From assembly GCF_018889995.1 (NCBI RefSeq), contig NZ_CP076547.1, positions 2,914,001-2,978,000 on the forward strand: a stretch of DNA of 64,000 nucleotides, read 5' to 3'. Below, in pieces: positions 1 to 64,000 of this stretch. The notes under the pieces are model-generated. The model worked only from the letters and a program-made list of their open reading frames with translations, made no database searches and was not told where the DNA came from. The position numbers and the translations under genes were made by a program. Every line of letters starts with the position of its first letter. Position 1 is the first letter of the stretch. This stretch comes from Subtercola sp. PAMC28395 (lineage in GTDB: Bacteria > Actinomycetota > Actinomycetes > Actinomycetales > Microbacteriaceae).

Positions 1-2
1 CT

Positions 3-152
3 GCCGCCGAGCTCGCACTGGCACTGGAACTCTCGCGCGTCACCACTCGGAGATACCTCGAACACCTCACCGCCGAAGGCACCGTCGTGAGATCGCCCCG
101 GTACGGCACACCCGGCAGGCCAGAGCTCGAGTACGTCTGGAAGCGCGTCTGA
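3..152 (+). CDS. C-terminal fragment of a CitB/DcuR-type response regulator
   Basis: Only the last 49 codons lie in the window; the start is off the left edge. The visible residues run AAELALALELSRVTTRRYLE, then EHLTAEGTVVRSPRYGTPG and a TGA stop. That is the DNA-binding end of response regulators of the CitB/DcuR class, which pair with sensor kinases for citrate, malate or other C4/C6 acids: a helix-turn-helix (LSRVTTRRYLEHL) followed by the wing with the conserved RYGTPGRPE. The receiver domain and the partner kinase would be further upstream, so the inducer cannot be told. It is transcribed toward the thiamine operon but is separated from it by a riboswitch leader. Confidence 0.75.
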   Translation, partial: AAELALALELSRVTTRRYLEHLTAEGTVVRSPRYGTPGRPELEYVWKRV

Positions 153-230
153 GAGCGGTCATAACCTGCGCGCCGCGCTAGCCCGCGATGAGTGAGGAAT
201 CCCCTTCGACCCGTGGTCTGGGGTGGTGAT

Positions 231-304
231 CGACGCGGGGTGCGCACTGGCGCTGAGAACATACCCGTCGAACCTGATCTAGCTCGAACTAGCGAAGGGA
301 CGTC
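231..304 (+). promoter_or_regulatory. TPP (thiamine pyrophosphate) riboswitch upstream of thiM-thiE
   Basis: The leader has the conserved THI-box blocks in order: GGGGTGC at 237-243, GCTGAGA at 252-258, ACCCG at 262-266, GAACCTGATCT at 270-280 and GCGAAGGGA at 292-300. The outer strands CGACG (231-235) and CGTCA (301-305) can pair to close helix P1. It lies 87 bases before the GTG of thiM. In actinobacteria such elements usually block translation or elongation when TPP is plentiful; which applies here is not evident. Confidence 0.93.
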
Positions 305-390
305 ACCTCAGTGGCTCCGAACCTGCCCCCGACTCTGCCCTCTACTCCGCCCCTACCAGCCCCGGCGAATCCAGGAGCAACTCTGTACCC

Positions 391-742
391 GTGACCGCAC
401 AGGCGATCGGCCACGCGCTTCGCCTTTTACGGGAGAGCCCGCCGCTGGTCCAGTGCATCACAAACATCGTCGTCGCCCAGTGGACCGCCAATGTGCTGCT
501 CGCAGCCGGCGCCGCACCGGCGCACCGGCGTCGGCTGCGCCTTCGGAGCACTCATGGCCGGATTCAGCGGGGTGGTCGACGACGCGTTGCTCGCCGCTGC
601 GGCCGCAACGGCCACGCTCACTGTGGTGGCCGACCGTGCAGCCGTCTACAGCCGAGGAACAGGCAGCTTCGCCGTTGGCCTGCTCGACGAGCTCACCACG
701 CTCACACCCGAACGCCTCGAAGAACTGACGCGCCTGTCGTGA
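391..742 (+). pseudogene. thiM: Broken hydroxyethylthiazole kinase gene with a large internal deletion
   Basis: ThiM phosphorylates the thiazole alcohol in thiamine salvage and is normally about 260-280 residues. Here the GTG at 391 (AGGAG at 373-377) opens a good N-terminus ([20 protein letters not shown]), about 40 residues long. Near 512-530 the reading jumps to another frame and continues as the C-terminus: [14 protein letters not shown], then the [13 protein letters not shown] tail, ending at 742. Roughly 150 central residues are missing and the two parts are out of frame. The junction lies in two adjacent copies of CACCGGCG, which suggests deletion between short repeats. The stop still overlaps the thiE start. 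A sequencing or assembly error cannot explain a loss of this size by a single base, but a misassembly should be excluded. Confidence 0.82.
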
Positions 743-1398: not shown

Positions 1399-1481
1399 GA
1401 ACGCTGAGCCGTGTCAGAACACTGAGCCCAATCAGCACACTGAGCCCTCAGAACACTGAGCCCAATCAGAACACTGAGCCA
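1399..1481. repeat. Intergenic tandem repeat, about 18 bp x 5
   Basis: The core CTGAGCC starts at 1404, 1422, 1440, 1456 and 1474, giving spacings of 18, 18, 16 and 18 bases, within a longer unit like TCAGAACACTGAGCCCAA. It fills the gap between the convergent thiE and ECF genes and runs into the last codons of the ECF gene, whose stop is at 1466-1468. No terminator-like hairpin with a T-run is visible here. Confidence 0.85.
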
Positions 1482-4381
1482 AACACAGAACCAAACACCA
1501 ACGGCACGCTCGCGACCAGTCCGACAACGACAAGCAACACGGTATCGGCGCGAGTCCAATGGGCCGGCTCGGCCCAGGTTCGTGTGTGGCTGGGTGTTTC
1601 GAGGCGGGAGAAGCCCCGGGCATCCATCGCCACCGCCATGCGCCCAGCCTTGCGCACCGATTGCACCAGAAGAGCGAAAGTCAGCGAGCCGAACTGCGAA
1701 GCACGTCTGAATGGTGACCGGCCCGCGCTCAGCCCGCGCACCCTCCGCACCCGTTGCAGCTGCTGCCACTGCTCGCTGAGCATGGAGAACTGTTGCAGCG
1801 CGGCGGTCGCAGCGACGACGGGCCGCGCAGGTAGGTGCAGCAGCTGCCCGAGATGGTCGCCGAGCGACGACGGCTCGATATACCCCGCCAACAGCACGCC
1901 GGGCAGCACGAAGAACGCAATCCGAAGCCCTGCAGTGACTCCGGCCAACAGACTCTGATCAGGGCTGAGCAGCCAGGTGGAGAAGGCGACCGACGCGGCC
2001 GCAAGGAGCCCCGGGGCAAGACGCCGCAGCCGGATCGATCGCAGATCGATCACCACAGGTGCCACCACAAGCAGCACGGCGACACCGATGATCGCCTGCC
2101 CGATGCTCGTGATGAACAGCGACCCGACCAGCATCAGCATCCCTCCAGCCAGCAGTGAGAGCGGCCCGCAGCGCCGCGCGAGACCAAGCCGTGCAGATGC
2201 CTGTCTGACGAACCCGAATGGATGCCCGGCTCCCCCCGGGCGAACGCCTGGCTGTTGCATTGTCTCTGCGGGTGTCATCTCTACAGGTGTTGCGTCTGCA
2301 GGTGCTGTCTCTGCAGGTGCTGCCTCTGCGGATGCGCCCGCCACCGCAGTGCCACGTGGCTCTGCGTGCTCACTCCCAGCACCTCCCACGACCCGACCGC
2401 CCTCGAGCCGAATTGTCCGGTCGGCGAGCTGCATGAGCAGCGGGTCGTGCGTCGCAACGACAACCGCCACCCCCGCGTCGCGCGCAGCAACGATGACACC
2501 CGCGACCGCAGACCAGGTGTGGCGGTCGAGTCCGACTGTCGGTTCATCGAGCACGAGCAGCGCCGGCCCGTGCGCGACGGCACCGGCCAGGGCGACCCGC
2601 CGGAGCTCGCCCCCCGAAAGGTGGTGAGGATCTTCGGCCGCGAGGGCTGTCAGGCCGAGAGCGGCGAGCAGGGCATCCACTCGACTATGCGCTTCGTGGG
2701 CGTCGTACCCGAGACGGATGCTCGTGCTGAGCACATCGTCGCGCACCGTTCGGGCCACAATCGCCAGCTCGGCGTTCTGCGGCACCCACCCCACGCGCTC
2801 AGCGAGTCGCCGCGAGGCCCACCGGCCAGGGTGTTGTTCGGCAGCGCTGGTCCGGGCAGCGCTGGTTTCGGCAGCGCCTTCCAGGCCGCCACCCTCCCAC
2901 ACGACGTCGCCGGATGTCGGGTTCGAGAGGCCGGCGAGCAGGGCGGTGAACGTCGACTTTCCTGCCCCGCTGGGCCCCACGACAGCCGTGATCTCACCGG
3001 CGAAGATGTCGGCGGTCACGTCTACGAGCACCGGCACAGCGGCTGCGCGTGCTGAGCTCTGCTGGCCGAACGACGCTGCTCGCTGAAGGGCGACGCCGAC
3101 GTTTCGGGCGCTCACGAGGGGCCCGCCTGGTTGGTTGGCCTGATTGGCCGGCTTGGCGTGATTGGCCGGCTTGACGGGCCCTCTTGGTCTGGCCTGGCAC
3201 AGCTCCGCCGACACCTTCTGCGGCGCAGGCGGGGCCGAATCTGGAACCCAGACACCAGCGCGGGCAAGGGCATCACGATGGGCGACCAGGGTAGCCGAAG
3301 CCTCCCCATCGGCGACGATCTCACCACCTTCGCCGAGCACCACCAAACGCGTGACCCGGGGCAACCACTCGGCAAGCTGGTGCTCCACGACGATGACCGT
3401 CGCACCGGATGCTGCGGCCGTCGCCCACACGGCTTCCCTGACCGCTGCGGCCGCAACCGGGTCGAGCATCGACGTCGGCTCGTCGAGCAGCACCAGCCGC
3501 GGGCCCATGACCAGCACCCCGGCGAGGGCGAGGCGCTGGGCCTCCCCTCCCGACAACCGGCTCGACGAATGGTCCGTTCCGTAGGGGAACGACACCGCAT
3601 CGAGCGTCCGCACGACTCGTGCACCCATCTGCGCGCGTTCGACGCCCTGGTTCTCCAGCCCGAACGCAGTGTCCCGGCCCACGGTCGCGGCCACGAGAGC
3701 ATCGCCCGGATCCTGAAGCAAGAGTCCGACGCTCGTCATTCCAGCCTCGCCAAGCTGGTCGACGCCGTCACCCTGGTCGAGGCCCGCAACCTGGTCAACA
3801 CCCTCACCCCGGTCGAGGCCCTCACCCCGGTCGAGGCCCTCACCCCGGTCGACACCATCACACCGGTCGACACCATCACCCCGGTCCACACCATCGACCG
3901 TCACCGAACCCGAGAGCCCGCCGGACTCCGTGGTTCCCAGGACCCCCGCAAGGGCGCGGAGCAGCGTGCTCTTGCCCGAGCCGCTCGGCCCGGTGACGAG
4001 AACACGCTCCCCCGCACCCACATGCAGGTCGAGACCACGCAAGATGGGCTCGGTACGACCGAAAGGACGCCAGGTGAGCCCGAGAACTTCGAGATCTGCA
4101 CCTGCGCTGGGCAGGGCATCCGGAGCGCCAGTGCGTTCGCCGTCGCCTCCGGACAGGCCACCCAAAGACTGGCCACCCGCAGACAGGCCATCCACAGACA
4201 GGCCGCCTACAGGCACGCCGTCTGCTGTCAGGCCGCCTACAGGCACGCCGTCTGCTGTCAGGCCGTCTACGGGCACGCCGTGACCAGACGAGCAGTGACC
4301 AGATGAGCAGTGACCAAAAGAGCCGTGACCAGACGAGGCGATCGGAGCACCGGTCACGGCCCCCGTCGAATCAGCCTCCAC
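1466..4381 (-). CDS. Single-chain ECF transporter: two ATPase domains fused to the EcfT membrane component (YkoD-YkoC type)
   Basis: The 971-residue protein powers a vitamin ECF importer, and its neighbour YkoE and riboswitch mark the cargo as thiamine or its pyrimidine precursor. In order: a repetitive N-terminus (about 1-90); ATPase 1 with GPSGSGKS at 131-138, Q-loop LLQDPGDALV, signature RLSGGEAQRLALAG and Walker B LVLLDEPTSMLDP; a linker; ATPase 2 with VVGPSGAGKST, HLSGGELRRVALAG and LLVLDEPTVGLD; and from about residue 700 the T component with several membrane segments, the coupling motif RRVRGLSAG and AMDARGF. Most family members split these parts over two or three genes. In-frame repeat arrays sit at the N-terminus, between Walker A and the Q-loop of ATPase 1, and in both linkers. 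The GTG start at 4381 has no clear ribosome site, so the true start is uncertain. Confidence 0.9.
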   Translation of the reverse strand: MEADSTGAVTGAPIASSGHGSFGHCSSGHCSSGHGVPVDGLTADGVPVGGLTADGVPVGGLSVDGLSAGGQSLGGLSGGDGERTGAPDALPSAGADLEVLGLTWRPFGRTEPILRGLDLHVGAGERVLVTGPSGSGKSTLLRALAGVLGTTESGGLSGSVTVDGVDRGDGVDRCDGVDRGEGLDRGEGLDRGEGVDQVAGLDQGDGVDQLGEAGMTSVGLLLQDPGDALVAATVGRDTAFGLENQGVERAQMGARVVRTLDAVSFPYGTDHSSSRLSGGEAQRLALAGVLVMGPRLVLLDEPTSMLDPVAAAAVREAVWATAAASGATVIVVEHQLAEWLPRVTRLVVLGEGGEIVADGEASATLVAHRDALARAGVWVPDSAPPAPQKVSAELCQARPRGPVKPANHAKPANQANQPGGPLVSARNVGVALQRAASFGQQSSARAAAVPVLVDVTADIFAGEITAVVGPSGAGKSTFTALLAGLSNPTSGDVVWEGGGLEGAAETSAARTSAAEQHPGRWASRRLAERVGWVPQNAELAIVARTVRDDVLSTSIRLGYDAHEAHSRVDALLAALGLTALAAEDPHHLSGGELRRVALAGAVAHGPALLVLDEPTVGLDRHTWSAVAGVIVAARDAGVAVVVATHDPLLMQLADRTIRLEGGRVVGGAGSEHAEPRGTAVAGASAEAAPAETAPADATPVEMTPAETMQQPGVRPGGAGHPFGFVRQASARLGLARRCGPLSLLAGGMLMLVGSLFITSIGQAIIGVAVLLVVAPVVIDLRSIRLRRLAPGLLAAASVAFSTWLLSPDQSLLAGVTAGLRIAFFVLPGVLLAGYIEPSSLGDHLGQLLHLPARPVVAATAALQQFSMLSEQWQQLQRVRRVRGLSAGRSPFRRASQFGSLTFALLVQSVRKAGRMAVAMDARGFSRLETPSHTRTWAEPAHWTRADTVLLVVVGLVASVPLVFGSVFGSVF
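2263..2340. repeat. In-frame 15-bp tandem repeat in the ECF gene (linker before the T domain)
   Basis: Units beginning CTGCGGGTG, CTACAGGTG, CTGCAGGTG, CTGCAGGTG and CTGCGGATG start at 2266, 2281, 2296, 2311 and 2326, exactly 15 bases apart. On the coding (minus) strand they give five-residue repeats of the AETAP / ADATP / VEMTP kind, in the linker between ATPase 2 and the membrane domain. Confidence 0.9.
3755..3898. repeat. In-frame 18-bp tandem repeat, 8 units, inside ATPase 1 of the ECF gene
   Basis: GGTC anchors at 3757, 3775, 3793, 3811, 3829, 3847, 3865 and 3883 are exactly 18 bases apart. The encoded six-residue units read GVDRGD, GLDRGE, GVDQVA and similar, at about residues 162-210. 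This lies between Walker A and the Q-loop of the first ATPase domain, where related domains have a short turn. Confidence 0.93.
4151..4339. repeat. Compound 15-bp and 30-bp repeats at the N-terminus of the ECF gene
   Basis: Three blocks follow each other: 15-bp units at 4151, 4166, 4181 and 4196 (AGACAGGCC core); two identical 30-bp copies at 4201-4230 and 4231-4260, with a diverged partial third; and 15-bp GTGACC units at 4280, 4295, 4310 and 4325. They encode GHCSS, VPVGGLTADG and related repeats. All periods are multiples of three. Confidence 0.92.
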
Positions 4382-4431
4382 AGTTCACCGCCCACTTCAT
4401 CTGGCAGCGAAGATCACTGGCAAAGCGCGAG

Positions 4432-6130: not shown

Positions 6131-7626
6131 GCAGACCTACGCAAATCGTGGCCGGCTGTTCGTCGTTGTGTGCATGGCCTGGGTGTTTGTGTCCAGTCGA
6201 TCTCGGGCGGCGGGACGATGTGCGGTGCGCCCGTGATCATGACGAGTTTCCACCGGCTCTTGTGCACGTTCGAATGATGAAAGTGACACAGCAGTACCCC
6301 GTTGTCGACATCTGTTCGGCCGGGCAGATAACCCTTGTCACGCCAATCGAGAACATGATGGGTTTCACACCACGACGGGGGTCTCCCGCACCCCGGCCAC
6401 ACACATCCGCCGTCGCGGGCGGCGAGGGCCCTGTTCTGCGCCGGAGTGAACAACCGTTTCGTCTTCCCGTGCTGCAACACCCGCCCCTCCCGCATCACCG
6501 TCGCAATCACATCCCCATGGCACAGCAACTGCTCGACGGTTGCCACCGGGACGGGCTGGTCGACCCCGTCAACCCAGCCCACACCCCGCCCGTCGACAAC
6601 ATCTTCCAAGGTGACGTGCACGTTGATCGTCGGACGCGCCCCACACAACACCGGCATACCCGGCAACCCCGCAACCCGATCGATATACGCCGTGAACCCA
6701 TCCACCAACAACTGCTCACGCGTGCGGCTGTCGGCCAACACCGGACTCACCTCATCGTCGGTGTCGTCGCCGGTGTCGTCGTCGGTGTAGTCGGCGTTCT
6801 CGTCACTGGTGAATGTGGGGAGTCGGGGGCTGAGGATGGTTTGGGCGATGGCCTGCCACTTCGCACCCTGCACCGCCGTCAACAGCCCACCGACCTTGAA
6901 CGTACCGTCCACCTGCTGCCGCAGCCACAACCCGCGCTTCTCTTCCAACTCCCGAGCTGTGGGTTCGGCACCATCAGGATCCAGATGCCCCTGCCACTGC
7001 GCCACCATCACCGCAACCTGATCCGCCGACAACGAAAGCCCCACATCCGCCCTGGGGTCAGCGGCGAGCACCAACATCCGTTCACACTCATGCAGATCCG
7101 CACCGAACCCCACCCGCCTGGCCGAATCCCCCAACATCCGGGTGATGACCTGCGCACTATCGACCCCGAGCCGACCCTCCCGCAGCGCCTCCTGCACGGA
7201 CGGGAAGTTACTCTCATTCACCAAACCCACCACCGACATCGACGACCGCACCGCCATACCCAACTTCACCCGGGCTGCCGCGGTCTTCTTCGACACCCCC
7301 GTCAAACCACTGATCAACGACACCACATCCGCGCAGCCATGCTTCACCGTCAACCGGTCATCACCATGCTCACGTTTAGATCGTTCAGCCAGCTCCCCCG
7401 CCGCCTCCACAACGATCCCCTCCGCACACCGCAACAGCGCCTCACCCGTCACCACCCACGCGAGGAGTTCTTCGTCGGCAAGCCCGCAGGGCGCGGCAGC
7501 CCCAAACCCGCCCGACGACACCACCGCTTCTACAGCCGCACGCAACGCCGCAACCCGCGGGTCATCAAGACCCTCAGGCGACGACCCGGAACCTCCGGCA
7601 GCTGGTGTATTCATACCCCCATTCAA
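6127..7626 (-). CDS. DUF222 / HNH endonuclease-domain protein (13E12-type)
   Basis: A 499-residue member of the DUF222-HNH family that is abundant and repeated in actinobacterial genomes. The N-terminal two thirds is the helical DUF222 region (GLADEELLAWVVTGEALLR, the VSKKTAAARV helix, LSADQVAVMVAQ). The C-terminus is an HNH nuclease site with DGGCVWPGCGRPPSWCETHH, VLDWRDKG, DNGVLLCHFHHSNVH: four zinc-type cysteines, the catalytic HH and the final HxxxH. An acidic stretch TDDDTGDDTDDE is encoded by a 12-bp repeat near 6760-6795. The biological role of the family is not established; such genes are often dispersed paralogues. ATG at 7626 or the ATG four codons later could start it. Confidence 0.88.
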   Translation of the reverse strand: MNGGMNTPAAGGSGSSPEGLDDPRVAALRAAVEAVVSSGGFGAAAPCGLADEELLAWVVTGEALLRCAEGIVVEAAGELAERSKREHGDDRLTVKHGCADVVSLISGLTGVSKKTAAARVKLGMAVRSSMSVVGLVNESNFPSVQEALREGRLGVDSAQVITRMLGDSARRVGFGADLHECERMLVLAADPRADVGLSLSADQVAVMVAQWQGHLDPDGAEPTARELEEKRGLWLRQQVDGTFKVGGLLTAVQGAKWQAIAQTILSPRLPTFTSDENADYTDDDTGDDTDDEVSPVLADSRTREQLLVDGFTAYIDRVAGLPGMPVLCGARPTINVHVTLEDVVDGRGVGWVDGVDQPVPVATVEQLLCHGDVIATVMREGRVLQHGKTKRLFTPAQNRALAARDGGCVWPGCGRPPSWCETHHVLDWRDKGYLPGRTDVDNGVLLCHFHHSNVHKSRWKLVMITGAPHIVPPPEIDWTQTPRPCTQRRTAGHDLRRSA

Positions 7627-8154: not shown

Positions 8155-11070
8155 CTACTGCCCGCTGGCCGCAATCGCTGCGGCAACGGCCGTCTTGAGC
8201 TGCGCGTCAGCGACGCCGTACGCTGCCCAGTCGGCCGCCTTGAGCGCAGCATCCCTCGCCGTCAATGCCGCCTGCGCCTCGTTCAGCGCCTGCTGGAGAG
8301 CCGCATTGTTGGTTGTCGACGGCGTAGTCGTGCCGGTGCCTGTCGACGTGCCAGTGCCCGTCCCAGTGCCAGCTCCCGGAGAGGGGGTATTACCGTCGCC
8401 AGCGGTCGCGCCAGAGTCGCCCCCGAAGAGGTCGTCGAGGGCCGCATTCAGGGTGTCTTCGAAGGCGATCTTGTCACCGAAGCCCACGAGGATCTTCTGC
8501 AGCAGCGGGTAACTCGTCTCACCTCGTGACTTGACATAGACCGGTTGCACGTAAAGTAACCCGCCACCGACCGGGAGGGTCAGCAGGTTACCGCTGATCA
8601 CGTCGGTCGAGCCCTGTTTCAGCAGGTTGAGCGCCTGCGAGACAGTGGGGTTCGAGCTGAACTTGTTCTGCTGCTGCCCGGGGCCGGGCACCGTGCCGGC
8701 CTTGGGCAAAGTCAACAGGCGAAGCTTGCCGAAGTCGGCAGACTTCTGCCCTGCCGTGGCCCCCGCGTTGGAATCGACCGCGAGATACCCGTTGAGGCTC
8801 TTGGACGTGTCTTCGCCGGTCAGTGGAATGAAGGTCGTGTACAGCGAGTACTGCGGCTCTGTCTGGCCCGGCATCTGCAGGGTCAGGTAATAGGGAGGCT
8901 GCAGCGTGGGGCTTGCCGCGAGAGACGTCGGGTCGTTCGGCGTCGTCCAGGCGTCTTCACGCGAGTAGAACGAACCGGCATCGGTGACGTGGTACTGCCC
9001 GAGGATGGCACGCTGCACCTTGAAGAGGTCTGCGGGGTACCGCACGTGGCTCATGAGCTGCGAGCCCATCTCGCTCATGGGCTTCACCGTGGCGGGAAAG
9101 ATCTTCTCCCAGGTCTGCAGCATCGGGTCGGTGTCATCCCAGGCGTAGAGCGTGACCTTGCCTGTGTAGGCATCGACGGTGGCCTTCACCGAGTTGCGGA
9201 TGTAGTTGATGTTGTTGTCGACCGCATACCCGAGCTTGGGAGTGTTCGTGTCGGCAATGGCCGCACTCAGCCCCTCGGTCTTGGAATACGGGTAGTTCGA
9301 CGAAGTGGTGTAACCGTCGACGATCCAGACCACCTTGCCGTCGACAACCGACGCATAGGGATCAGAGTCGATCGTCAGGTACGGCGCGACCTTCGACACG
9401 CGGGTCGCCGGATCGCGGTCGTAGAGGATCTGTGAGTTCGCATTGACGGCCTCAGAAAGGAAGATCTGCTCCGACTGGAACTTCAGCGCATAAGCCAAGC
9501 GGTTGAAGACGTTGTCGAGCTTCGGCCCGCCGTCGCCGGTGAACGTGCTGTAGGCCTGCGACGCGCTGTCAGTGCCCGACGGGTAGTCGAGTTCGACCGC
9601 CGACGCGCCCTGGGCGGCACCAACGATCGAGTAGTCCGGTGATGTCTTGCCGAAGTAGATGCGCGGTTCGTAGGCGCCCAGTACACCGGTGCTAGGGATG
9701 CCCGACTCGGCAAAGACCGGCTGGCCGTCGGCCGAGCGCTGGTTGCCGTAGGCGGCGACCACCCCGTACCCGTGCGTGTACACGACGGTCTGGTTGTACC
9801 AGCTCGCCGAGGTGCCGAGCTGCGTGAGGTTCAGGTCACGTACGGTGGTGACCGTGTCCTGGCTCTTGCCGTCGATGGTGTACCGGTCGACGTTGAGGTC
9901 GGTCGGGAACTGGTAGTACTGCCGGAACTGCTGCAGCGCCGCGAATGTTCCGCTCACGATGGCAGGGTCGAGAATCCGGATGCTCGAGGTGGTCGCTGCG
10001 TCGGCCCGGAGCGCCCCTGCCTCAGCCGTCGTCTTCGCGTCGTACGGAATCGTCTCGACATCGGAGACCCCGTAGGCATCCCTTGTCGCATTGATGTTGT
10101 CTTGAAGGTAGGGCTGCTCGAGGCTTTTCTCAGACGGGTCGACCTGGAAGCGCTGAACGACCCACGGGTAGAGCGAGCCAAGGATGAGACCGCTGATGAT
10201 GAGCAGCACCGTGCCGATGACCGGCAGCCTCCACCGGCCGATGAAGGCAGCGATCAGGAACAGGATCGCGACGATGACAGCGATACCGGAGAGGATCTGA
10301 AGGCCGGGGATGGTGGCATTGACGTCGGAGTAGGAGGCCCCGGTGAGGAGCCCGCCACTGCTCGTGAGGGTCGCGTACTGGTCGAGCCAGATGCTGACGG
10401 CCTGCAGCAGGAGATAGATGCCGGCGGTGATCGCGACCTGTACGCGGGCGGTCTTGGAAATCCGCACTTCACGCTGCCCGAACCTGATGGCGCCGTAGAG
10501 GTAGCTCGTCGAGACTGCAGCGATACCGGAGAGGATCACGACCGCCGAGGCGAACCCGACGACACTCTGCCAGAACGGCAGGTCGTAGACGTAGAACGAG
10601 ACATCGAGCCCGAACTGCGGATCGGTCTTGCCGAACGACGTCCTGTTGAGGTACATCAGCACGACCTGCCAGCGCGTGGCTGTGGCGACACCGGCGAAGA
10701 GACCGAGAAGCGCCGGGATGCCGAACGCCGCCAGGCGACGCAACGGTTCGACGACCTGCTGGTAACGGTCGAGCTGGGAGTTCAGCTTCGCGTAGACCGG
10801 CCTGAAGCGGAAGGCGATCTCGATGCTCGCGAAGACAGGAATGGCCATGGCGAAGAAGCCGATGAAGAACATCACTGTTCCGGCCACCCACTGGGTGGTG
10901 AGCACGCTGACAAACCCGAGCTGGTTGTACCACAGCACTTCGGTGTAGAGGTTCGTGAAGATGAAGAAGGCGATGGCGAGAACCGCGATTACGGCAATCG
11001 CGACCGCGATCACTGTTCGCGACTTACGCGCGGGCTTCTGGCCGGAGTTCTGGGCGGTGGAGGAAGTCAC
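8155..11070 (-). CDS. UPF0182 family large membrane protein
   Basis: A 971-residue protein with about seven N-terminal membrane segments (first near residues 19-40, VIAVAIAVIAVLAIAFFIF) followed by a very long extracytoplasmic part. Family landmarks include NLYTEVLWYNQLGFVSVL, VYDLPFW, DPSEKSLEQPYLQ.NI.ATR and VKATVDAYTGKVTLYAWD. The C-terminus is Gly/Thr-rich (about residues 896-920) and ends in an alanine-rich helix. The function is not known to me; the family is widespread in actinobacteria and here, as in mycobacteria, lies next to the PDZ-Lon protease gene, transcribed after it. Start is GTG at 11070. Confidence 0.92.
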   Translation of the reverse strand: MTSSTAQNSGQKPARKSRTVIAVAIAVIAVLAIAFFIFTNLYTEVLWYNQLGFVSVLTTQWVAGTVMFFIGFFAMAIPVFASIEIAFRFRPVYAKLNSQLDRYQQVVEPLRRLAAFGIPALLGLFAGVATATRWQVVLMYLNRTSFGKTDPQFGLDVSFYVYDLPFWQSVVGFASAVVILSGIAAVSTSYLYGAIRFGQREVRISKTARVQVAITAGIYLLLQAVSIWLDQYATLTSSGGLLTGASYSDVNATIPGLQILSGIAVIVAILFLIAAFIGRWRLPVIGTVLLIISGLILGSLYPWVVQRFQVDPSEKSLEQPYLQDNINATRDAYGVSDVETIPYDAKTTAEAGALRADAATTSSIRILDPAIVSGTFAALQQFRQYYQFPTDLNVDRYTIDGKSQDTVTTVRDLNLTQLGTSASWYNQTVVYTHGYGVVAAYGNQRSADGQPVFAESGIPSTGVLGAYEPRIYFGKTSPDYSIVGAAQGASAVELDYPSGTDSASQAYSTFTGDGGPKLDNVFNRLAYALKFQSEQIFLSEAVNANSQILYDRDPATRVSKVAPYLTIDSDPYASVVDGKVVWIVDGYTTSSNYPYSKTEGLSAAIADTNTPKLGYAVDNNINYIRNSVKATVDAYTGKVTLYAWDDTDPMLQTWEKIFPATVKPMSEMGSQLMSHVRYPADLFKVQRAILGQYHVTDAGSFYSREDAWTTPNDPTSLAASPTLQPPYYLTLQMPGQTEPQYSLYTTFIPLTGEDTSKSLNGYLAVDSNAGATAGQKSADFGKLRLLTLPKAGTVPGPGQQQNKFSSNPTVSQALNLLKQGSTDVISGNLLTLPVGGGLLYVQPVYVKSRGETSYPLLQKILVGFGDKIAFEDTLNAALDDLFGGDSGATAGDGNTPSPGAGTGTGTGTSTGTGTTTPSTTNNAALQQALNEAQAALTARDAALKAADWAAYGVADAQLKTAVAAAIAASGQ

Positions 11071-16620: not shown

Positions 16621-17618
16621 TCCCGCCCGGGAATGGAACCGCCGTACCAGTGCTCGATGATCGCACGCGCAATCGAAGAGGATCCGGGCAGGATCGCCGT
16701 CTGGGCCGGGTCGGCCAGGTCTTCGCGGCTGAACCAGCGCACATCGAGGATCTCTTCACCGTCGGGCACCAGCGGATCAGTCGAGGAGGCAGGGTCGACG
16801 CGGGCGAGGAACCCGCACATCAACGACGCCGGAAACGGCCATGGCTGCGAACCGAGGTACTCGGGCGTGAGAATCCGGACTCCTGACTCCTCGTAGACCT
16901 CGCGAATCGCCGCGGCCTCGAGCGACTCGCCTGGCTCGACGAAGCCGGCCAGCAGCGAGTACCGGTTGTTCTCCCACAGGGCGTTCGAGCCCAGCAGGAT
17001 GCGGTCATGCTCATCGACGATCCCGACGATCACCGCCGGGTCGGTCCGGGGAAAGATCTCGATGTCCTGCACGGGGCATCGCCTCACCCAGCCGCCCATC
17101 TCTGGCACGGTCTCTGCTCCGCAGCGTGGGCAGTGGGTGTGGGAGTTGTGCCAGTTGATGATGCCGAGCGCCTCGGTGAAGACACCGGCGTCACGGTCGG
17201 TCAGCCCCGGCGCGACCATACGCAGGTTCACCCACCGGCTTTCGTCTGGCTCGAGTGCGCGTGCTGCGTCGTCGGTGAGCGACAGCGCGACGAGTCGGGT
17301 TCCGACTGGCTCGGTGACATCGGTGGCCAGCGAGCGCCCGAGGTACACCGCGACCTCCACTCCAGCAGAACCGGTCACACCCGCCCCACTGACTGCTCCG
17401 ATGCTCGCTGGAGGCAGGAAAGCCAGCTCCGGATGCCCGGCAGAGCCAGTGCCCAGAAGCGCCAGCCCGTTCCAGAACACCGCAACGCGCGTAGCCTCGT
17501 CTGCCCAGAGTGTGTCGAACAGCTGCGGCGTGCCGCGAAACTCGTGATCGCGGTCGATCTCGAAACGGGAGAGCGGCAGCGAAGAGAGAAAAGTCGTATG
17601 CAAGGGTTGACCAATCAT
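16614..17618 (-). CDS. nudC: NAD(+) diphosphatase (NADH pyrophosphatase)
   Basis: NudC hydrolyses NAD(H) to NMN(H) and AMP and can remove NAD caps from RNA. The 334-residue protein has a zinc-ribbon-like section at 163-184, FPRTDPAVIVGIVD, the Nudix box at about 225-247 (GFVEPGES...REVYEESG) and the NADH-specific SQPWPFPAS at 257-265. Only three of the four ribbon cysteines are present (C163, C166, C181; the fourth position is Q184). It precedes uvrD2 with a 7-base overlap and is divergent from the kinase-fold gene, whose start is 47 bases away. Confidence 0.94.
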   Translation of the reverse strand: MIGQPLHTTFLSSLPLSRFEIDRDHEFRGTPQLFDTLWADEATRVAVFWNGLALLGTGSAGHPELAFLPPASIGAVSGAGVTGSAGVEVAVYLGRSLATDVTEPVGTRLVALSLTDDAARALEPDESRWVNLRMVAPGLTDRDAGVFTEALGIINWHNSHTHCPRCGAETVPEMGGWVRRCPVQDIEIFPRTDPAVIVGIVDEHDRILLGSNALWENNRYSLLAGFVEPGESLEAAAIREVYEESGVRILTPEYLGSQPWPFPASLMCGFLARVDPASSTDPLVPDGEEILDVRWFSREDLADPAQTAILPGSSSIARAIIEHWYGGSIPGRDW

Positions 17619-18797: not shown

Positions 18798-18802
18798 AAT
18801 GC

Positions 18803-18870
18803 AGGCACCCGAGAACTACAGGCGCCTGAGAACTGCAGGCGCATGAGCACTGCCGGCGCGTGAGCACTAC
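18803..18870. repeat. Intergenic 17-bp tandem repeat x 4 overlapping the adnB stop
   Basis: Units such as AGGCGCCTGAGAACTGC are anchored by GAGAACT or GAGCACT at 18811, 18828, 18845 and 18862, exactly 17 bases apart. The last unit contains the adnB stop codon (CTA on the plus strand at 18867). The unit resembles, but does not equal, the CTGAG-bearing array after thiE. Confidence 0.9.
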
Positions 18871-45299: not shown

Positions 45300-45360
45300 G
45301 GTCCTTTTCGCCCCAACTCTGGCCGCCGACAAAGCACAGCTTCGTCGGCGCTGGCGTCGC

Positions 45361-45385
45361 AGCGAGCATCCACTGGATGCTCGCT
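45361..45385. terminator. Perfect 12-bp hairpin at the gltA end (convergent with dapD)
   Basis: AGCGAGCATCCA (45361-45372) is an exact inverted match of TGGATGCTCGCT (45374-45385), touching the gltA stop at 45385-45387. A second smaller stem GCCGAC...GTCGGC lies at 45325-45349. No T-run is seen. Confidence 0.7.
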
Positions 45386-52373: not shown

Positions 52374-54069
52374 GAAGGTGAAGCTCCTGGTTCTGAGCGC
52401 TGGGTGCGTGTTCGGGAAGGGACTGCTGTTCGGGAAGGGACTGCTGCTGGGGAAGCGGCTGCTGCTGAGAGGAAGCTGCGTTCCCAGCGACGGTGCGCAC
52501 TCTCCTCGCCGAGCGGAGACCACGTACCCCGAATGCGGCGAGTACCGCAGCAGCGAGCAGGAGTGCAAGTGGCAGGTAGTACCTGAAGAGAGCTGCTTCG
52601 TCGGCAGCCGAACGCCAGTCGGTCACAGTCGTTGCCACGGCCTCGGAATGTGTGCTGTCGACGGCCCACGACAGCGACCCTGTAGCGGTGTCGGCCGAAG
52701 CAGCACTCGCAGAAGCCACGGCAACGGTTCGCGCTGAAGTGAGACCGCCACCTGACAGCGTCACCGTGCTCACCGACTGGTGCGTGGCATCCAGCAGCGT
52801 ATCGCTGGCGACCCAGACCTGGTCGGTCACCGCCACATTCCAGGCCGCATCGAACGGGCCGGGATTCAGTGCTCGGTTGACACCCACCGGAGTGCGACCG
52901 CCATTCAGCGCCGCAAGCTGGTCGAGCGTGAGCGAGGTGGACAGGCCCGTGGTGTCTGCGTTGGACGTGACCGACCAGGACCGGGCATCCAGACCCATGT
53001 GGGTGTCGGGCTCAGAAGCGGAGGCATCGAGGATGGTCGTGGACTCTACGCCCGACACTGTGGTCTCCAGCGCGAGCACGCCGTTGGAGGTCACCAGCTG
53101 GGTAGAACCGAGTGGCTGGCCGTCGGCCGCAACGATCGGCGCACTGCCTGTGGTTGTGGTGCCGGCAGCGCCGGGCGAAACCGGCATCGGCACAGCAACG
53201 GCGAGCATGAGCGCAACCGCAGCGAATCCGCCCGCGAGCCCCAGCTGCAGCCGGTAGGCGTTGAGCCCGGGGCGGAGCGTGCGTGGCCAGAGCACGAACA
53301 ACAGCACCGGAACGAGGTAGAGAGCCCAGCCCAGAACCTCGATGACGCGGGGGTCAGAGGGGATTCCGAGCACCCCGGTGAGCAGGGCGGCCTGCACAGA
53401 ACCGGCAGGAGCGAGCCACTCCAGGTCAACGGTGCTCTGCTGCCCGAGCGTGATCCAGCCGGCCTCGTGGGCGGTGCGGAGCGCGCTCATCACCAGACCG
53501 GCTGCGACGAACACCAGGAACACGCCGGTGACAGTGAAGAACTTGCCGAGGTTGAGCTTCACCCCGCCGCGGTAGATCGCGTAACCGATACCAACGGAGA
53601 CGAGAATGCCGATGATCGCTCCCATACCCGCAGCCAGGGGGCTCACCGACGACTGAAAGGCCGCGAGGAGGAAGACCGAAGTCTCGAAACCTTCACGCAG
53701 TACGGCGAGAAAGGCCATACCCGAGAGAGCGAGAACGGAACCGTTGCCGAGTGCGCGACCGGCGGTGGATTCGAGTTCACTCCGCATGTTGCGGGCGTGC
53801 TTGCTCATCCAGATGATCATCGCGGTGACCATGACGACGGCGACCGCCGCGATGATCGACTCCATGGCCTCTTGTTGGGCCTGGGGCAGGCCGACGGAGA
53901 TCACCTCGAGAATGATTCCCACCGCGAGGCTCAATACGAGCGCGGCTCCGACACCGACCCACATCGACTTCAGCGAGTGCCCGTTGCGCTTCAGGAAGGC
54001 GGCGATGATGCCCACGATGAGCGCGGCTTCAAGCCCCTCGCGAAGGCCGATGACGAACGTGGCTAGCAC
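52363..54069 (-). CDS. efeU: EfeU, FTR1-family iron permease with extracytoplasmic extension
   Basis: The iron channel of the importer. The 568-residue protein has FTR1 helices with both REGxE motifs (REGLE 10-14, REGFE 125-129) and VAAGLVMSALRTAHEAGWI. After the seventh helix (around 295) a Ser/Thr-rich extracytoplasmic domain of about 200 residues follows, then a last helix (LPLALLLAAAVLAAFGV) and a Gln/Pro-rich cytoplasmic tail from an 18-bp repeat (QQQSLPEQQSLPEH). GTG at 54069 follows GGAGAGA. First gene of efeUOB; two DtxR/IdeR-like sites lie upstream. Confidence 0.93.
   Translation of the reverse strand: MLATFVIGLREGLEAALIVGIIAAFLKRNGHSLKSMWVGVGAALVLSLAVGIILEVISVGLPQAQQEAMESIIAAVAVVMVTAMIIWMSKHARNMRSELESTAGRALGNGSVLALSGMAFLAVLREGFETSVFLLAAFQSSVSPLAAGMGAIIGILVSVGIGYAIYRGGVKLNLGKFFTVTGVFLVFVAAGLVMSALRTAHEAGWITLGQQSTVDLEWLAPAGSVQAALLTGVLGIPSDPRVIEVLGWALYLVPVLLFVLWPRTLRPGLNAYRLQLGLAGGFAAVALMLAVAVPMPVSPGAAGTTTTGSAPIVAADGQPLGSTQLVTSNGVLALETTVSGVESTTILDASASEPDTHMGLDARSWSVTSNADTTGLSTSLTLDQLAALNGGRTPVGVNRALNPGPFDAAWNVAVTDQVWVASDTLLDATHQSVSTVTLSGGGLTSARTVAVASASAASADTATGSLSWAVDSTHSEAVATTVTDWRSAADEAALFRYYLPLALLLAAAVLAAFGVRGLRSARRVRTVAGNAASSQQQPLPQQQSLPEQQSLPEHAPSAQNQELHLHDA
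52410..52463. repeat. In-frame 18-bp tandem repeat x 3 in the efeU tail
   Basis: GTTCGGGAAGGGACTGCT occurs unchanged at 52410 and 52428, then as GCTGGGGAAGCGGCTGCT at 52446, with a partial fourth. It encodes QQQSLP / EQQSLP units in the cytoplasmic C-terminus. Confidence 0.93.
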
Positions 54070-54238: not shown

Positions 54239-56125
54239 ATGTACGTCGTTGTTTCTCCCGCCGGCCCCGACGGGTATGCGCTGTCGTTCCTCGATGACTC
54301 CGGCGAAGAAGAACAGCAGGGCGAATTGGTCGCGACCGACGAATTGGGCGAAGCCGTCGAAGCGATCGAGCTCGAGTCCCCTCGCTGGGTCTGGCACGAC
54401 ACGGCCGCAACATATTCCCAGATCCTCGAGGCGGGAGTCCGCGTCGAACGCTGCCACGACCTGCGACTCACAATAGCCCTGCTGAGATTGTCGAGCCTCA
54501 CTTCCGGCACGGGCCTGGCGATGTCACCCCCTGGCCCATGGGACACGGCAATCACCTCTCCGAAGCCGAGCGTTGCAGGGAATCGGTCAGGCAACGAACT
54601 GAGTTTTGACGACGACAAGCCAGAGGGCTTTGGCACTGGCCGAGACAGCTCTGGCGAAGACGATGCTGGCAGCGACAACGCTGAAGGCAACGCATCTGGC
54701 GTGGCCCAACCCACAATCGACGAGTTTCGGCTCCAGCTCGAGACCGTCAGGGCCGCCACCGAGCCGAACCGCCTTCGCCTGCTCATTGCAGCCGAGTCGG
54801 CGGGGGCCCTCATTGCTGCGGAGATGACGCACGCCGGTCTACCGTGGCGAGAAGACGTGCATGACGCCCTGCTCACCGAGCTTCTCGGCCCCCGTGTTGC
54901 GCCGGGACTTCGGCCAGCCCGCCTCGAACAGCTGGCCACGATCATCCAGCACGAACTCGGCTCCCCCGGCCTCAACACCGACTCACCCGCCGAGGTGCTC
55001 AAGGCACTCAGAGCCGCCGGGCTCTCAGCCGAGACGACGCGGTCGTGGGAGCTGCAAGCGCTCGATCATCCGGTGATCGAGCCGCTGCTCGAATACAAGA
55101 AGCTCTCGCGCCTGCTGAGCGCCAACGGATGGTCGTGGATGGAGTCCTGGGTCACCGACGGCCGGTTCTCTCCCGAGTATGTGCCGGGCGGGGTCGTCTC
55201 CGGCCGGTGGGCCACTCGCGGGGGCGGCGCCCTGCAGCTGCCGAAACAGGTGAGACGGGCGGTCACCGCCGACGAGGGGTGGAAGCTGGTCGTGGCCGAT
55301 GCCGCCCAGCTCGAGCCTCGCATCCTCGCCGGCGTCTCTGGAGACCTGATCATGGCTCGTGCGGGCCAGGGGGCTGATCTCTATGCCGGAATCGTCGCGA
55401 GCGGGGCAGTCGAAAGCCGAGCACAAGCGAAGGTGGCGATGCTCGGGGCCATGTACGGTGCCACGACGGGCGAGAGTGGCCGGCTGCTGCCGCGACTGGC
55501 TGCGGCATTTCCTGCGGCTCTCACGTTCGTCGAAGACGCGGCCCGTGCAGGCGAACGCGGCGAAGTCGTGACCTCGAGACTGGGCCGGAGTTCACCTCGG
55601 CCAGGGGAAGACTGGTGGGAAGCGCAGGCTGCGGCGCGAGAAGGTGCCGGGTCGGAGCGTGAGCGGCAGCGCGCTCGGCAACAGGCGCGGGACTGGGGCC
55701 GCTTCACTCGCAACTTCGTCGTGCAGGCCAGCGCGGCAGACTGGGCGCTGTGCTGGATGGCCGACCTGCGGCGGCGCCTCTGCGCTCTCGGAACAGCGGC
55801 TCTCGGAACAGCGGCACTCGGAACAGCGGATCTCGGAACAGCGGCCCTCGAAACAGCGGCACTCGGAACAGCGGCACTCGGAACAGCGGCCCTCGCAACA
55901 GCGCATGGACCAGGCCGGGCCGCCGAACCGTTCGGCACAGTTCCGCACCTCGTGTTCTTCCTCCACGACGAGGTCATCGTGCATGCGCCCGAGTCTCTGG
56001 CCGAGGCCGTGGCCGATGCCCTGCGTTCCGCTTCGGCCAGCGCCACGAAGCTGCTCTTCGGCGAGTTCCCGCTCACTGTGCCGCTCGACGTATCCATCGT
56101 CGACTCCTACGCCGACGCGGCCTGA
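54239..56125 (+). CDS. Family-A DNA polymerase-like protein (bifunctional exonuclease/polymerase type)
   Basis: A 628-residue relative of DNA polymerase I, lacking the 5-prime nuclease, found as a second pol in actinobacteria. Motif A reads VVADAAQLEPRILAGVSGD (catalytic Asp kept, YSQIEL changed), the fingers motif SRAQAKVAMLGAMYGATTG keeps R, K and YG, and motif C is FFLHDEVIVHAP. The N-terminal exonuclease part (1-85) shows no obvious DEDD set. An acidic Ser/Gly linker lies about 115-160. A 15-bp repeat x 8 encodes ALGTAALGTA at about 516-556, some 20 residues before motif C. Start ATG at 54239. Confidence 0.88.
   Translation: MYVVVSPAGPDGYALSFLDDSGEEEQQGELVATDELGEAVEAIELESPRWVWHDTAATYSQILEAGVRVERCHDLRLTIALLRLSSLTSGTGLAMSPPGPWDTAITSPKPSVAGNRSGNELSFDDDKPEGFGTGRDSSGEDDAGSDNAEGNASGVAQPTIDEFRLQLETVRAATEPNRLRLLIAAESAGALIAAEMTHAGLPWREDVHDALLTELLGPRVAPGLRPARLEQLATIIQHELGSPGLNTDSPAEVLKALRAAGLSAETTRSWELQALDHPVIEPLLEYKKLSRLLSANGWSWMESWVTDGRFSPEYVPGGVVSGRWATRGGGALQLPKQVRRAVTADEGWKLVVADAAQLEPRILAGVSGDLIMARAGQGADLYAGIVASGAVESRAQAKVAMLGAMYGATTGESGRLLPRLAAAFPAALTFVEDAARAGERGEVVTSRLGRSSPRPGEDWWEAQAAAREGAGSERERQRARQQARDWGRFTRNFVVQASAADWALCWMADLRRRLCALGTAALGTAALGTADLGTAALETAALGTAALGTAALATAHGPGRAAEPFGTVPHLVFFLHDEVIVHAPESLAEAVADALRSASASATKLLFGEFPLTVPLDVSIVDSYADAA
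55786..55905. repeat. In-frame 15-bp tandem repeat x 8 in the polymerase gene
   Basis: Units of the form (T/A/C)CTCGGAACAGCGG start every 15 bases from 55786 to 55891 (55786, 55801, 55816, 55831, 55846, 55861, 55876, 55891), most differing by one or two bases. They encode ALGTA five-residue repeats just ahead of polymerase motif C. Confidence 0.96.
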
Positions 56126-61998: not shown

Positions 61999-62128
61999 GG
62001 CCTAACTGGCCTGGACTTCGGATTGGATGCACATATGGAGAAGTTGACCTTACTGTGACGGGCCACGGGCTTTGGAACAGGCTACTCGTTCGAAACCCCG
62101 CGGCCGGCATAACTGTCGGAATCACACC

Positions 62129-62161
62129 GCAGGGGCGGTAGCTCAACGCCACCGCCCCTGC
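62129..62161 (-). terminator. Hairpin downstream of the binding-protein gene
   Basis: GCAGGGGCGGT (62129-62139) and ACCGCCCCTGC (62151-62161) are exact inverted arms with an 11-base loop, 18 bases past the binding-protein stop. No T-run follows, so it is likely a partial terminator or an RNA-stabilising stem that keeps binding-protein mRNA more abundant than the permease part. Confidence 0.75.
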
Positions 62162-62178
62162 AGATGTCTGGGCTGGTG

Positions 62179-63795
62179 TTAGCCCTTGGTGATTTCGTAG
62201 TACAGCGGTACCGAGTTCCAGCCGAAGTGCACGCTCGACACTGCGGTGCTGAAGCCACCGGTCACGTTTGAGTACCACAGCGGAATTGCAGGCAGGTCCT
62301 TGAACAGGATTGTCTGGGCGTCCTGGTAGTCCTTGATCGCAGCGGCCGAGTCGGTCTCGCTCGAGCCCTTCGTCAGCAGTGCATCGAAGGCCGGGTTCGA
62401 GTAGTCCCCGTCGTTCGAGCCGGCGTTGGTCGCGTAGATCGGGCCGAGGAAGTTGAACAGGCCGGGGTAGTCGGCCTGCCATCCGGTGCGGAACGCGGTC
62501 TGGATCGAGCGGTCGGTGATGGCCGTACGAACCTGCTTGAACGTCGGTGACGGAGCGCCGGAGGCGTCGATACCGAGGTTGTTCTTCAGGTTGTTCACAA
62601 CTGCGTCGACCCAGCCCTGGTGGCCACCGTCTGCGTTGTACGCGATCTGGAAGGTGCCGGTCCACGGTGAGATGGCGTCCGCCTGTGCCCACAGCTTCTT
62701 GGCGTCTTCAGCGTTGTACTTCAGAACATCTGAGCCCGAGATCGAGTCCGACCAGCCGTCGATGACCGGCGACGTGAAGTCTGCGGCCGGCGTACGGGTG
62801 TCTTCGAAGATCACCTTCGTGATGGTCGCGCGGTCGATCGCTTCTGAGATCGCCTGGCGACGCAACTGGCCTTCCTGGCCGCCGAAGTGAGCCAAGCGGT
62901 CCGGAATCGTGAACGACTGGAAGATCGCAGCCGGCTGGTTCACGGCACGGTCGCCGAGGTCGTTCTTGTACGTGGCGTAGGCGCTGTCGGGGATCTGGTC
63001 GATCACGTCGACGTTGTTCGCCTGCAGGTCGGCGTAGGCCGCGTCTGCCGTCGGGTAGAACGTGATGGTCAGGCCACCGTTCAGCGGCTTGCGGCCACCG
63101 GTGTACTCGGGGTTCGACACGAGGTCGATCTTGACGTTGTGCTGCCACGCGCCGGCCTTGGCCAGCATGTAGGGGCCGTTTCCGATCGGGTTCTCGCCGA
63201 ATGCCTTCAGGTCGGTGAACGCGACGCTGGGCAGCGGCATGAAGGCCGTGTAGCCGAGGCGGAGCGGGAAGTCCGAGTGCGGCGCCTTCAGGGTGACCGT
63301 GAAGGTCGTGTCATCGACCTTCTTCAGACCGGTGAGGGGTGAGTCTGCGTCGTAGCTGAAGCCCACGATGTCCTCGAAGAAGTAGCTGTTCAACTGGGCG
63401 TTGCTGAGGAGCGCGCCGTACTGCCAGGCATTGATGAAGGAGTCAGAGGTGACGGCCTCACCGTTCGTGAACTTCTCGTTCGGCTTGATCTTGATCGTGA
63501 ACGTGGTGGAGTCGGTCGTCGTGATGGAATCGGCGACATCGTTCTGCGGAGCGCCCTTCTCGTCGTAGTAGACGAGTCCAGCGAAGATGTTGTCCGTGAT
63601 CTTGCCGCCACCGGTCTCGTTGGTGTTGGTCGGGATCAGCGGGTTCTGCGGCTCAGAGCCGTTCGTGGTGATGATCGCTGACGTGTTGGCACTCGCGGTG
63701 GGCGTGCTGCTGCCCCCGCTTGCGCATCCTGTGAGCACGAGCGCGCTGGCTGCTGCCAGAGCGACGACGCCCACTCCAATACGACTGATTCTCAA
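62179..63795 (-). CDS. Peptide ABC transporter substrate-binding lipoprotein (SBP family 5)
   Basis: A 538-residue extracytoplasmic binding protein. Signal peptide with lipobox LTGC (Cys24), Ser/Thr linker, then family-5 marks: GGKITDNIFAGLVYYDEKG, FTNGEAVTSDSFINAWQYG, NPIGNGPYMLAKAGAWQHN, GGLTITFYPTADAAYADLQA and RRQAISEAIDRATIT. It starts with TTG at 63795, 5 bases after a perfect AGGAGG. The cargo is probably a peptide, but the family also binds other solutes. Confidence 0.93.
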   Translation of the reverse strand: MRISRIGVGVVALAAASALVLTGCASGGSSTPTASANTSAIITTNGSEPQNPLIPTNTNETGGGKITDNIFAGLVYYDEKGAPQNDVADSITTTDSTTFTIKIKPNEKFTNGEAVTSDSFINAWQYGALLSNAQLNSYFFEDIVGFSYDADSPLTGLKKVDDTTFTVTLKAPHSDFPLRLGYTAFMPLPSVAFTDLKAFGENPIGNGPYMLAKAGAWQHNVKIDLVSNPEYTGGRKPLNGGLTITFYPTADAAYADLQANNVDVIDQIPDSAYATYKNDLGDRAVNQPAAIFQSFTIPDRLAHFGGQEGQLRRQAISEAIDRATITKVIFEDTRTPAADFTSPVIDGWSDSISGSDVLKYNAEDAKKLWAQADAISPWTGTFQIAYNADGGHQGWVDAVVNNLKNNLGIDASGAPSPTFKQVRTAITDRSIQTAFRTGWQADYPGLFNFLGPIYATNAGSNDGDYSNPAFDALLTKGSSETDSAAAIKDYQDAQTILFKDLPAIPLWYSNVTGGFSTAVSSVHFGWNSVPLYYEITKG

Positions 63796-64000
63796 GGTTT
63801 CCTCCTGTGCAAACTGGGAATTTCGAATCCGCGGCTCGTGGCCGAAGTCTCGAATCGAATGTGTCGCTCACGATGCGTGTGAAGCCTCGCAAATCGGGCA
63901 CGCTGAGGTGATCGGCGCGCTCGATGACTACCGAGTACCCTAAAAGGGGTGGCGCGAAGAACCAAATGCGTGTGAAAAAAGTTACATACTAGAAACTAAA
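63796..64000. other. Leader of the peptide-transporter operon
   Basis: About 200 bases upstream of the TTG, containing the AGGAGG ribosome site at 63801-63806 and presumably the promoter. An AT-rich tract at 63955-64000 is unusual for this GC-rich window and could be the promoter or an element beyond it. No gene is supported. Confidence 0.5.

Follow-up and report, generated by a model that had tools for sequence, protein, structure and literature searches.

A 64,000-bp stretch of the chromosome of Subtercola sp. PAMC28395 (hereafter "the window", meaning the whole stretch analysed) is rich in short tandem repeat arrays that exceed chance, were duplicated at the DNA level, are filtered by reading frame in genes, and turn over between two species of the genus, where noncoding DNA carries a genus-wide excess centred on units of 12–18 bp. 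These features probably reflect a short tandem-duplication process that is enhanced in this lineage, tolerated since NucS repair ignores insertions and deletions (indels), and then filtered by selection. The window corresponds to G000:C1:2914001-2978000, where G000 is the source genome, a 3,214,492-bp single contig; the guanine-plus-cytosine (GC) content of the strain is given as 64.5% in its genome paper (PMC10303725), and that of our G000 samples was 0.639 and 0.652. Arrays were called with Tandem Repeats Finder (TRF), with a main cut at a score of at least 50 and overlapping rows merged. The window contained 76 TRF rows at scores of at least 30 and 37 rows at scores of at least 50, the latter merging into 22 non-overlapping arrays. 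Order-3 Markov shuffles of the window (n=30) gave a mean of 1.0 arrays and a maximum of 3, and at scores of at least 60 the counts were 18 versus 0.23, so the richness in short in-frame tandem repeats noted by eye in the original prediction is real.

The tendency had also been proposed to be genome-wide, and the window was scanned for arrays together with a further 60 stretches of 20 kb, covering 1.264 Mb or 39% of G000. This sample contained 240 arrays; 56 of 63 pieces held at least one and 7 held none, with 0–21 arrays per 20-kb piece. Array-rich parts were located near 1.23–1.30, 2.19–2.26, 2.72, and 2.83–3.17 Mb and in the first 20 kb. The window lies inside one such arc and, at 3.44 arrays per 10 kb compared to the G000 average of 1.90, is ~1.8 times richer than the chromosome as a whole. 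The trait is thus genome-wide, as proposed, but patchy. Replication geography was considered as an explanation and set aside: array density was weakly correlated with distance from dnaA (at 0.964 Mb; rho 0.30, p 0.018, 63 pieces), and the cumulative skew had a broad top at 2.56–2.78 Mb.

Arrays were also present in all seven same-genus genomes with at least 40 kb sampled (G000, G001, G003, G004, G006, G007, and G009; the collection holds one genome per species). In the window's region, densities per 10 kb were 3.87 in the sister species G006, 3.83 in G007, 3.2 in G001, 2.75 in G003 (40 kb), 2.67 in G009, and 2.33 in G004, and in other genera of the family they were 0.5 in G013, 0.83 in G017, 1.17 in G015 and G024, 1.33 in G012, and 1.5 in G018. 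Gene-based synteny with the window was checked for G006, G001, G007, G009, G004, and G013, and for the pieces of G003, G012, G015, G017, G018, G021, and G024, adnB alone served as the positional marker. G013, from another genus, has a similar GC content (0.646 vs 0.652 for the window) and matches to 32 of the 49 window genes, yet only 3 arrays in 60 kb, compared to 14–29 arrays in 60–75 kb of five same-genus genomes. Pooled over all samples, there were 190 arrays per Mb in G000, 204 in G006 (where 68 arrays were found in 400 kb along the chromosome), and 298 in other members of the genus (window's region only), versus 95 in other genera of the family, 300 in Herbiconiux, and 155 in other families of the order; in E. 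coli K-12, one array was found in 50 kb. The Herbiconiux genome sampled in the window's region (G021) had 3.33 arrays per 10 kb, with a higher GC content and a shuffle value of 0.83.

Period was then tabulated against coding status. As the first gene calls missed the DUF445 and DUF1003 genes, the period, density, and lag counts were redone with corrected calls, and the codon-shuffle and codon-identity results below rest on the first calls. The G000 sample contained 148 arrays in genes (1.31 per 10 kb), 67 in noncoding DNA (4.88 per 10 kb), and 25 straddling gene edges, i.e., arrays were 3.7 times denser outside genes than inside. Where the period was 9 bp or more, it was divisible by three for 142 of 145 arrays in genes and for 26 of 65 in noncoding DNA, which bears out the proposed filtering by reading frame; the corresponding fractions were 50/51 and 17/29 in G006, and 57/58 and 10/17 in other genus members. 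All 19 genic arrays of the window have periods divisible by three, and the remaining three have periods of 17, 34, and 50 bp. A 16-bp spacing had been reported outside genes, but the sole 16-bp TRF row (17434–17465; score 43, below our cut) lies inside a NUDIX gene.

Whether sequence of the same codon usage yields similar numbers of arrays had been raised as a possible refutation, and this was run: shuffling codons within 1153 genes gave 13–21 arrays in five runs versus 142 observed. Local shuffles (five runs each) gave 21–32 arrays over 25 codons and 25–40 over 10 codons, and redrawing synonymous codons while keeping the protein left 67–93 (five runs). Where adjacent units encode the same residue, the codons were identical in 904 of 1076 pairs (84% vs 43% expected), which indicates that duplication occurs in the DNA and not in the peptide alone; identity between adjacent units at codon positions 1, 2, and 3 was 0.85, 0.84, and 0.80.

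Unit size provides a further clue. By its scoring, TRF at scores of at least 50 is blind to two-copy arrays below ~12 bp, and we therefore also tallied, lag by lag, how often exact 9-mers recur, a measure that does not depend on copy number. In the noncoding DNA of Subtercola, counts at lags 11 to 20 were 9, 18, 12, 19, 21, 19, 12, 20, 6, and 4, with echoes at 24, 28, and 30. Lags 12–18 collected 121 hits (53.9 per 100 kb) in the genus versus 12 (19.6 per 100 kb) in the family's other genera, where the noncoding sample is small (61 kb), a 2.7-fold difference (p 0.0002), and no excess was detected at lags 19–25 (23.2 vs 22.9 per 100 kb). We had considered that the band might be a TRF detection bias and rejected this, as the lag count retains it, albeit as a 12–18 bp plateau rather than a sharp peak at 15. 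The band in noncoding DNA is thus 12–18 bp rather than the 15–18 bp of the original prediction, and within genes it becomes periods of 12, 15, and 18 bp; 15–18 bp appeared dominant because this band was read through the frame filter. It is conceivable, and we suggest it tentatively, that the lineage-enhanced process itself makes tandem duplications of 12–18 bp with a sharp drop at 19, the unit being set by an enzyme footprint or by a flap or excision-patch length (e.g., a displaced patch of ~15 nt), in which case the in-frame 12, 15, and 18 bp would be its filtered shadow. In Herbiconiux, a unit size near 20–21 bp was glimpsed in a noncoding sample of 11 kb that held no fully noncoding TRF array.

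The 22 arrays of the window are as follows (window coordinates; strand, or no strand where none is assigned; supporting evidence in parentheses).

1398–1480, no strand: 18/34-bp unit array at a gene edge and in intergenic DNA (TRF score 127)
2279–2329, minus: 15-bp array in the ABC/CbiQ transporter gene, between domains (TRF, Pfam)
2839–2877, minus: 15-bp array in the transporter gene, within the best ABC domain match (TRF, Pfam)
3135–3173, minus: 18-bp array in the transporter gene (TRF, Pfam)
3757–3886, minus: 18/54-bp array in the transporter gene (TRF)
4199–4281, minus: 15/30-bp array close to the transporter N-terminus (TRF)
6751–6804, minus: 12/24-bp array in the DUF222 gene; here a 240-bp insert in G006 carries a 9-bp x15 array (TRF, G006 alignment)
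8330–8372, minus: 18-bp array in the C-terminal tail of the UPF0182 gene (TRF, Pfam)
18800–18868, no strand: intergenic 17-bp x4 array, not in G006 (TRF, G006 alignment)
21848–21911, minus: 18-bp array in the AdnA-like gene, inside the helicase domain match; none called in G006 (TRF, Pfam)
22447–22493, minus: 12-bp array in the AdnB-like gene, past the nuclease domain; the 12-bp array at this place in G006 has a different unit (TRF, Pfam)
23463–23513, minus: 15-bp array in the AdnB-like gene; G006 lacks one 15-bp unit (G006 alignment)
25486–25570, minus: 18-bp array in the AdnB-like N-terminal tail; G006 lacks 45 bp, none called there (G006 alignment)
27465–27523, plus: 15/30-bp array in the DEAD helicase N-terminal tail; G006 lacks part of it (TRF, Pfam, alignment)
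29180–29208, plus: 15-bp array in the N-terminal tail of the DUF445 gene; 3.1 copies in G006 (alignment, Pfam)
32423–32456, plus: 15-bp array in the M24 peptidase N-terminal tail; absent from G006 (alignment, Pfam)
33952–34051, no strand: 50-bp x2 hairpin-forming array spanning the M24 peptidase stop; 5 copies in G006 (alignment, folding)
36734–36816, plus: 15-bp array in the C-terminal tail of the DUF1003 gene; 30 bp shorter in G006 (alignment, Pfam)
38034–38084, plus: 21-bp array at the C-terminus of the Mrp-like gene; weak, score 53 (TRF, alignment, Pfam)
42967–43092, minus: 15/45-bp array at the N-terminus of a gene without Pfam match; 30 bp shorter in G006 (TRF, alignment)
52409–52464, minus: 18-bp array in the FTR1 permease C-terminal tail, common to G006 (alignment, Pfam)
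55787–55903, plus: 15-bp x7.8 array in the family-A polymerase C-terminal tail; 3.2 copies called in G006 (alignment, Pfam)

Pfam supported as array hosts an ABC/CbiQ (ECF-type) transporter, a DUF222 protein, UPF0182, two UvrD-helicase/PD-(D/E)XK proteins, a DEAD helicase, DUF445, M24 aminopeptidase P, DUF1003, an Mrp-like ParA, an FTR1 permease, and a family-A polymerase. Most of the gene names given previously thus agree with Pfam, except for the "glycosyltransferase" gene (41681–43087), which had no Pfam match. The names adnA and adnB come from the original prediction, with Pfam showing UvrD-helicase/PD-(D/E)XK, and the DUF222 gene, for which Pfam gave DUF222 only, is presumably the HNH-type gene named there. 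The gene at 1466–4381 (minus strand), previously called ECF, encodes a transporter in which ABC domains are fused to a CbiQ part, and its five arrays are the most of any gene in the window.

Comparison with G006, to which the window aligns at 89.9%, revealed turnover. Within the aligned span, 8 of 16 window arrays overlapped a G006 array and 8 did not, and 8 G006 arrays were private; alignment identity fell from 90.3% outside arrays to 72.6% within them. In ten collinear blocks totalling 174.6 kb, the two species had 11 arrays in common, with 23 private to G000 and 31 to G006. Among 149 indels of 3–130 bp in these blocks, 22 were tandem-like, including 12 of 12–18 bp, 6 of 30 bp, and 4 of other sizes. 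Copy number also differs between the two genomes (2.0 in G000 and 5.0 in G006 at 33952; 7.8 and 3.2 at 55787). The arrays at 22447 and 42967, common to both, have kept their base period with a different unit sequence (judged by eye), which is what repeated unit loss and re-expansion would give. Neither a greater number of arrays in faster-evolving regions (rho -0.56, p 0.059, 12 blocks only) nor a correlation between the positional densities of G000 and G006 (rho 0.28, p 0.38) was significant.

Mechanistically, the data show that local sequence is duplicated, that copies are gained and lost, and that the products are filtered. We propose that local sequence in Subtercola genomes is duplicated in tandem, most often over 12–18 bp, and that units are then gained, lost, and homogenised, with slippage or misalignment between copies as the likely copying step. 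NucS, the mismatch repair enzyme of actinobacteria, is described as unable to correct indels (PMC8228993), so that slipped intermediates would stay, which makes indel-blind repair the likely permissive condition. Selection then serves as a filter: noncoding DNA retains any period, genes retain those divisible by three (12, 15, or 18 bp, or such units doubled), and genic survivors are found mainly in tails and linkers rich in Pro, Thr, Ala, and Ser.

The position of the arrays within proteins also bears on whether the repeats are themselves useful, i.e., whether flexible linkers and tails built from repeats are under positive selection (e.g., for cold adaptation). When the 19 genic window arrays were placed by hand relative to the best Pfam stretches, 14 lay outside (the AdnB-like N-terminal one overlapping its stretch by ~4 residues), 3 inside, 1 was uncertain, and 1 was in a gene without family. 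In array peptides P, T, A, S, Q, D, and E are over-represented and W, C, Y, F, I, L, M, and R are scarce, and cold sites are the origin of several published Subtercola strains. Such a location and composition would favour usefulness, but the composition is also as expected if duplications persist where structure is loose. We consider usefulness unlikely as the driver, given that arrays of the same size band are 3.7 times denser outside genes, where they lack frame, that codons and not residues alone are repeated, and that at least half of the arrays occur in just one of two closely related species.

A repair defect had also been proposed as a cause. Six repair families were profiled in 40 genomes, 12 of them in the genus, and no gene loss among these families tracks the genus-wide array excess, which leaves this proposal unsupported for them. 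NucS was matched in 39 of 40 genomes and Ku in 30, each including all 12 genus members; XseA was matched in 40 and Y-family polymerases in 37. The 5'-nuclease family PF02739 was matched in all 40, with a PolA-sized protein in 37 (not in drafts G002, G034, and G038) and in 11 of the 12 genus members (draft G002 having only a fragment). A second PF02739 protein (FenA-like) is missing within the genus only from G000 and G006; the 10 other members have two matches, one of those in G002 being a sub-threshold fragment. With the SbcD profile, G000, G002, and G006 had no hit, and the hits in G004, G005, and G009 all fell below the threshold.

Flap-nuclease defects yield short tandem duplications (yeast rad27/FEN1, E. 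coli polA), and the specific loss of the second 5'-3' flap-type exonuclease together with SbcD could therefore leave persisting flaps or slipped structures that are ligated into duplications. G000 and G006 fit this pattern, each having one PolA-sized PF02739 match and no SbcD hit. We nevertheless regard such a loss as a quite improbable explanation. G001, G003, and G007 retain both genes above cut-offs yet have 2.75–3.83 arrays per 10 kb, and G012, G015, G018, and G024 also have a single PF02739 match and only 1.17–1.5. Since sister species with both genes are also array-rich, the losses are not the common cause, although they might add to the array excess.

It is very improbable that the arrays stem from a mobile repeat, or from a nuclease that spreads or cuts at them, for which the multicopy DUF222 family (which we take to be 13E12-type) would be an example: DUF222 has 15 matches in G000 and one window DUF222 gene contains an array, but G013 has 17 matches and few arrays, G012 and G017 have 12 and 13, and no link between DUF222 copy number and arrays was found. 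The 12–18 bp consensus units differ between loci, in agreement with the original statement that this is not one mobile repeat; this was judged by eye, with no clustering or formal motif search. Chance arising from high GC, codon usage, and low-complexity proteins has next to no probability and was rejected, since, although array numbers tend to rise with GC among the relatives, both in real and in shuffled sequence, all nulls (Markov, codon, and local shuffles) fall short and G013 is array-poor.

Several observations weigh against the lineage-enhanced duplication process that we favour. Similar densities occur in some high-GC relatives (Herbiconiux, 39 arrays in 130 kb; G025, 14 in 40 kb; Microbacteriaceae 3FA27C10, 8 in 23 kb), whose shuffle values are also higher, and indel-blind repair is common to relatives and so cannot account for a genus-level excess. 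As for size, noncoding lags 5–8 are also in excess (34 vs 3 hits, p 0.046), the excess at lags 12–18 is just 1.3-fold in genes (p 0.027, first gene calls), and the family noncoding sample behind the main comparison is small. Periods of 15 bp are also frequent among coding arrays of other family genera (9 of 35), so that the size is not wholly special to Subtercola. In addition, about half of the coding arrays survive the synonymous redraw, and protein-level repetition therefore accounts for part of the coding signal. The noncoding share of multiples of three exceeds one third in G006 and other genus members, to which missed genes may contribute.

Other features of the arrays and their surroundings were also observed. 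An apparent strong strand asymmetry of whole arrays was set aside, as its control is unsuited to repeated sequence; unit-length controls gave a weaker A+C versus G+T asymmetry (0.245 in arrays vs 0.191, p 6e-6), significant in genes (p 6e-5) and not outside (p 0.09). No leading/lagging orientation of array composition was found in the G000 sample. There, array-masked 500-bp bins near arrays were more A+C/G+T asymmetric than far bins (0.073 vs 0.055, p 3e-7), as were array-rich 20-kb pieces (rho 0.38, p 0.002). The pieces G000:1280001-1300000 (L049; 21 arrays per 20 kb) and G000:1227001-1247000 (L128; 13) have opposite GC skews (+0.096 and -0.084), and among the proteins that they encode are a DUF222 protein, a cellulase, a thymidine kinase, a signal peptidase, a beta-helix protein, and a response regulator.

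Longer repeats were present as well. Arrays of 49–50 bp GC-rich units occur in the sampled G000 stretches at 33952-34051 (window), L115:18570-18911, and L122:6521-6636; the first overlaps the M24 peptidase stop codon, and only 2 of its 200 shuffles fold as well or better (z -3.3). These three units do not match each other at E 0.01, and that of L115 matches sequence elsewhere in the genus. Dispersed families related to 112- and 114-bp units (45328-45398 and 34084-34149 in the window; L132:8173-8405; L130:12064-12364) occupy 12 and 7 places, respectively (300-bp bins, arrays included), in the 39% G000 sample and are also found in G006, with no match in other genus or family samples at E 0.01.

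Subtercola is a bacterial genus whose sequences show directly how short tandem repeats arise, pass the frame filter, and turn over, and its noncoding DNA provides an internal control for selection. The 12–18 bp band with its drop at 19 bp offers a quantitative clue to the DNA transaction behind short tandem duplications where mismatch repair ignores indels, and the arrays suggest that disordered tails of conserved proteins, including an AdnAB-like helicase-nuclease, can grow through neutral duplication. Minisatellite-rich bacteria are already known. In the open-licence literature, we did not find Subtercola tandem repeats, Microbacteriaceae variable-number tandem repeats (VNTRs), the genus-level excess, or the 12–18 bp band reported: neither "repeat" nor "tandem" appears in the S. 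vilae genome paper (PMC6518244), and the PAMC28395 paper (PMC10303725) uses "repeat" just once, for a pentapeptide repeat protein.

Compared to known systems, the Subtercola arrays differ from dispersed mobile repeats (i.e., like repetitive extragenic palindromes or miniature inverted-repeat transposable elements, REP/MITE), in which one unit recurs at many loci, as the 12–18 bp arrays do not do so, although some 104–114 bp units do recur. They resemble the products of flap-nuclease mutants (yeast rad27/FEN1, E. coli polA), which form de novo short tandem duplications of local sequence, except that G000 has a PolA-sized protein with a 5'-nuclease domain and that loss of the second nuclease does not track the genus. 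The closest likeness is to bacterial minisatellites or VNTRs: head-to-tail units are above chance (22 vs 1.0 arrays), short units occur in and outside genes, are in frame in genes, and vary in copy number between related genomes. Subtercola differs from these in having ~190 arrays per Mb of sample with varied units, centred on 12–18 bp, and in the genus-level excess, our comparison being between species only. A survey of satellites in prokaryotes gives group medians of 0–3 per Mb and places M. tuberculosis at 5.0 and Burkholderia mallei chrI at 12.8 (PMC6749651), and Subtercola was not met in the part of the survey consulted. By a SATFIND-like rule, imitated from its description rather than run with the program itself, the other family genera have 3.6 per Mb and Herbiconiux 15.4 (2 in 130 kb), and we obtained 16 in 1.264 Mb (12.7 per Mb) for G000 and 11 in 475 kb (23.2 per Mb) for G006.

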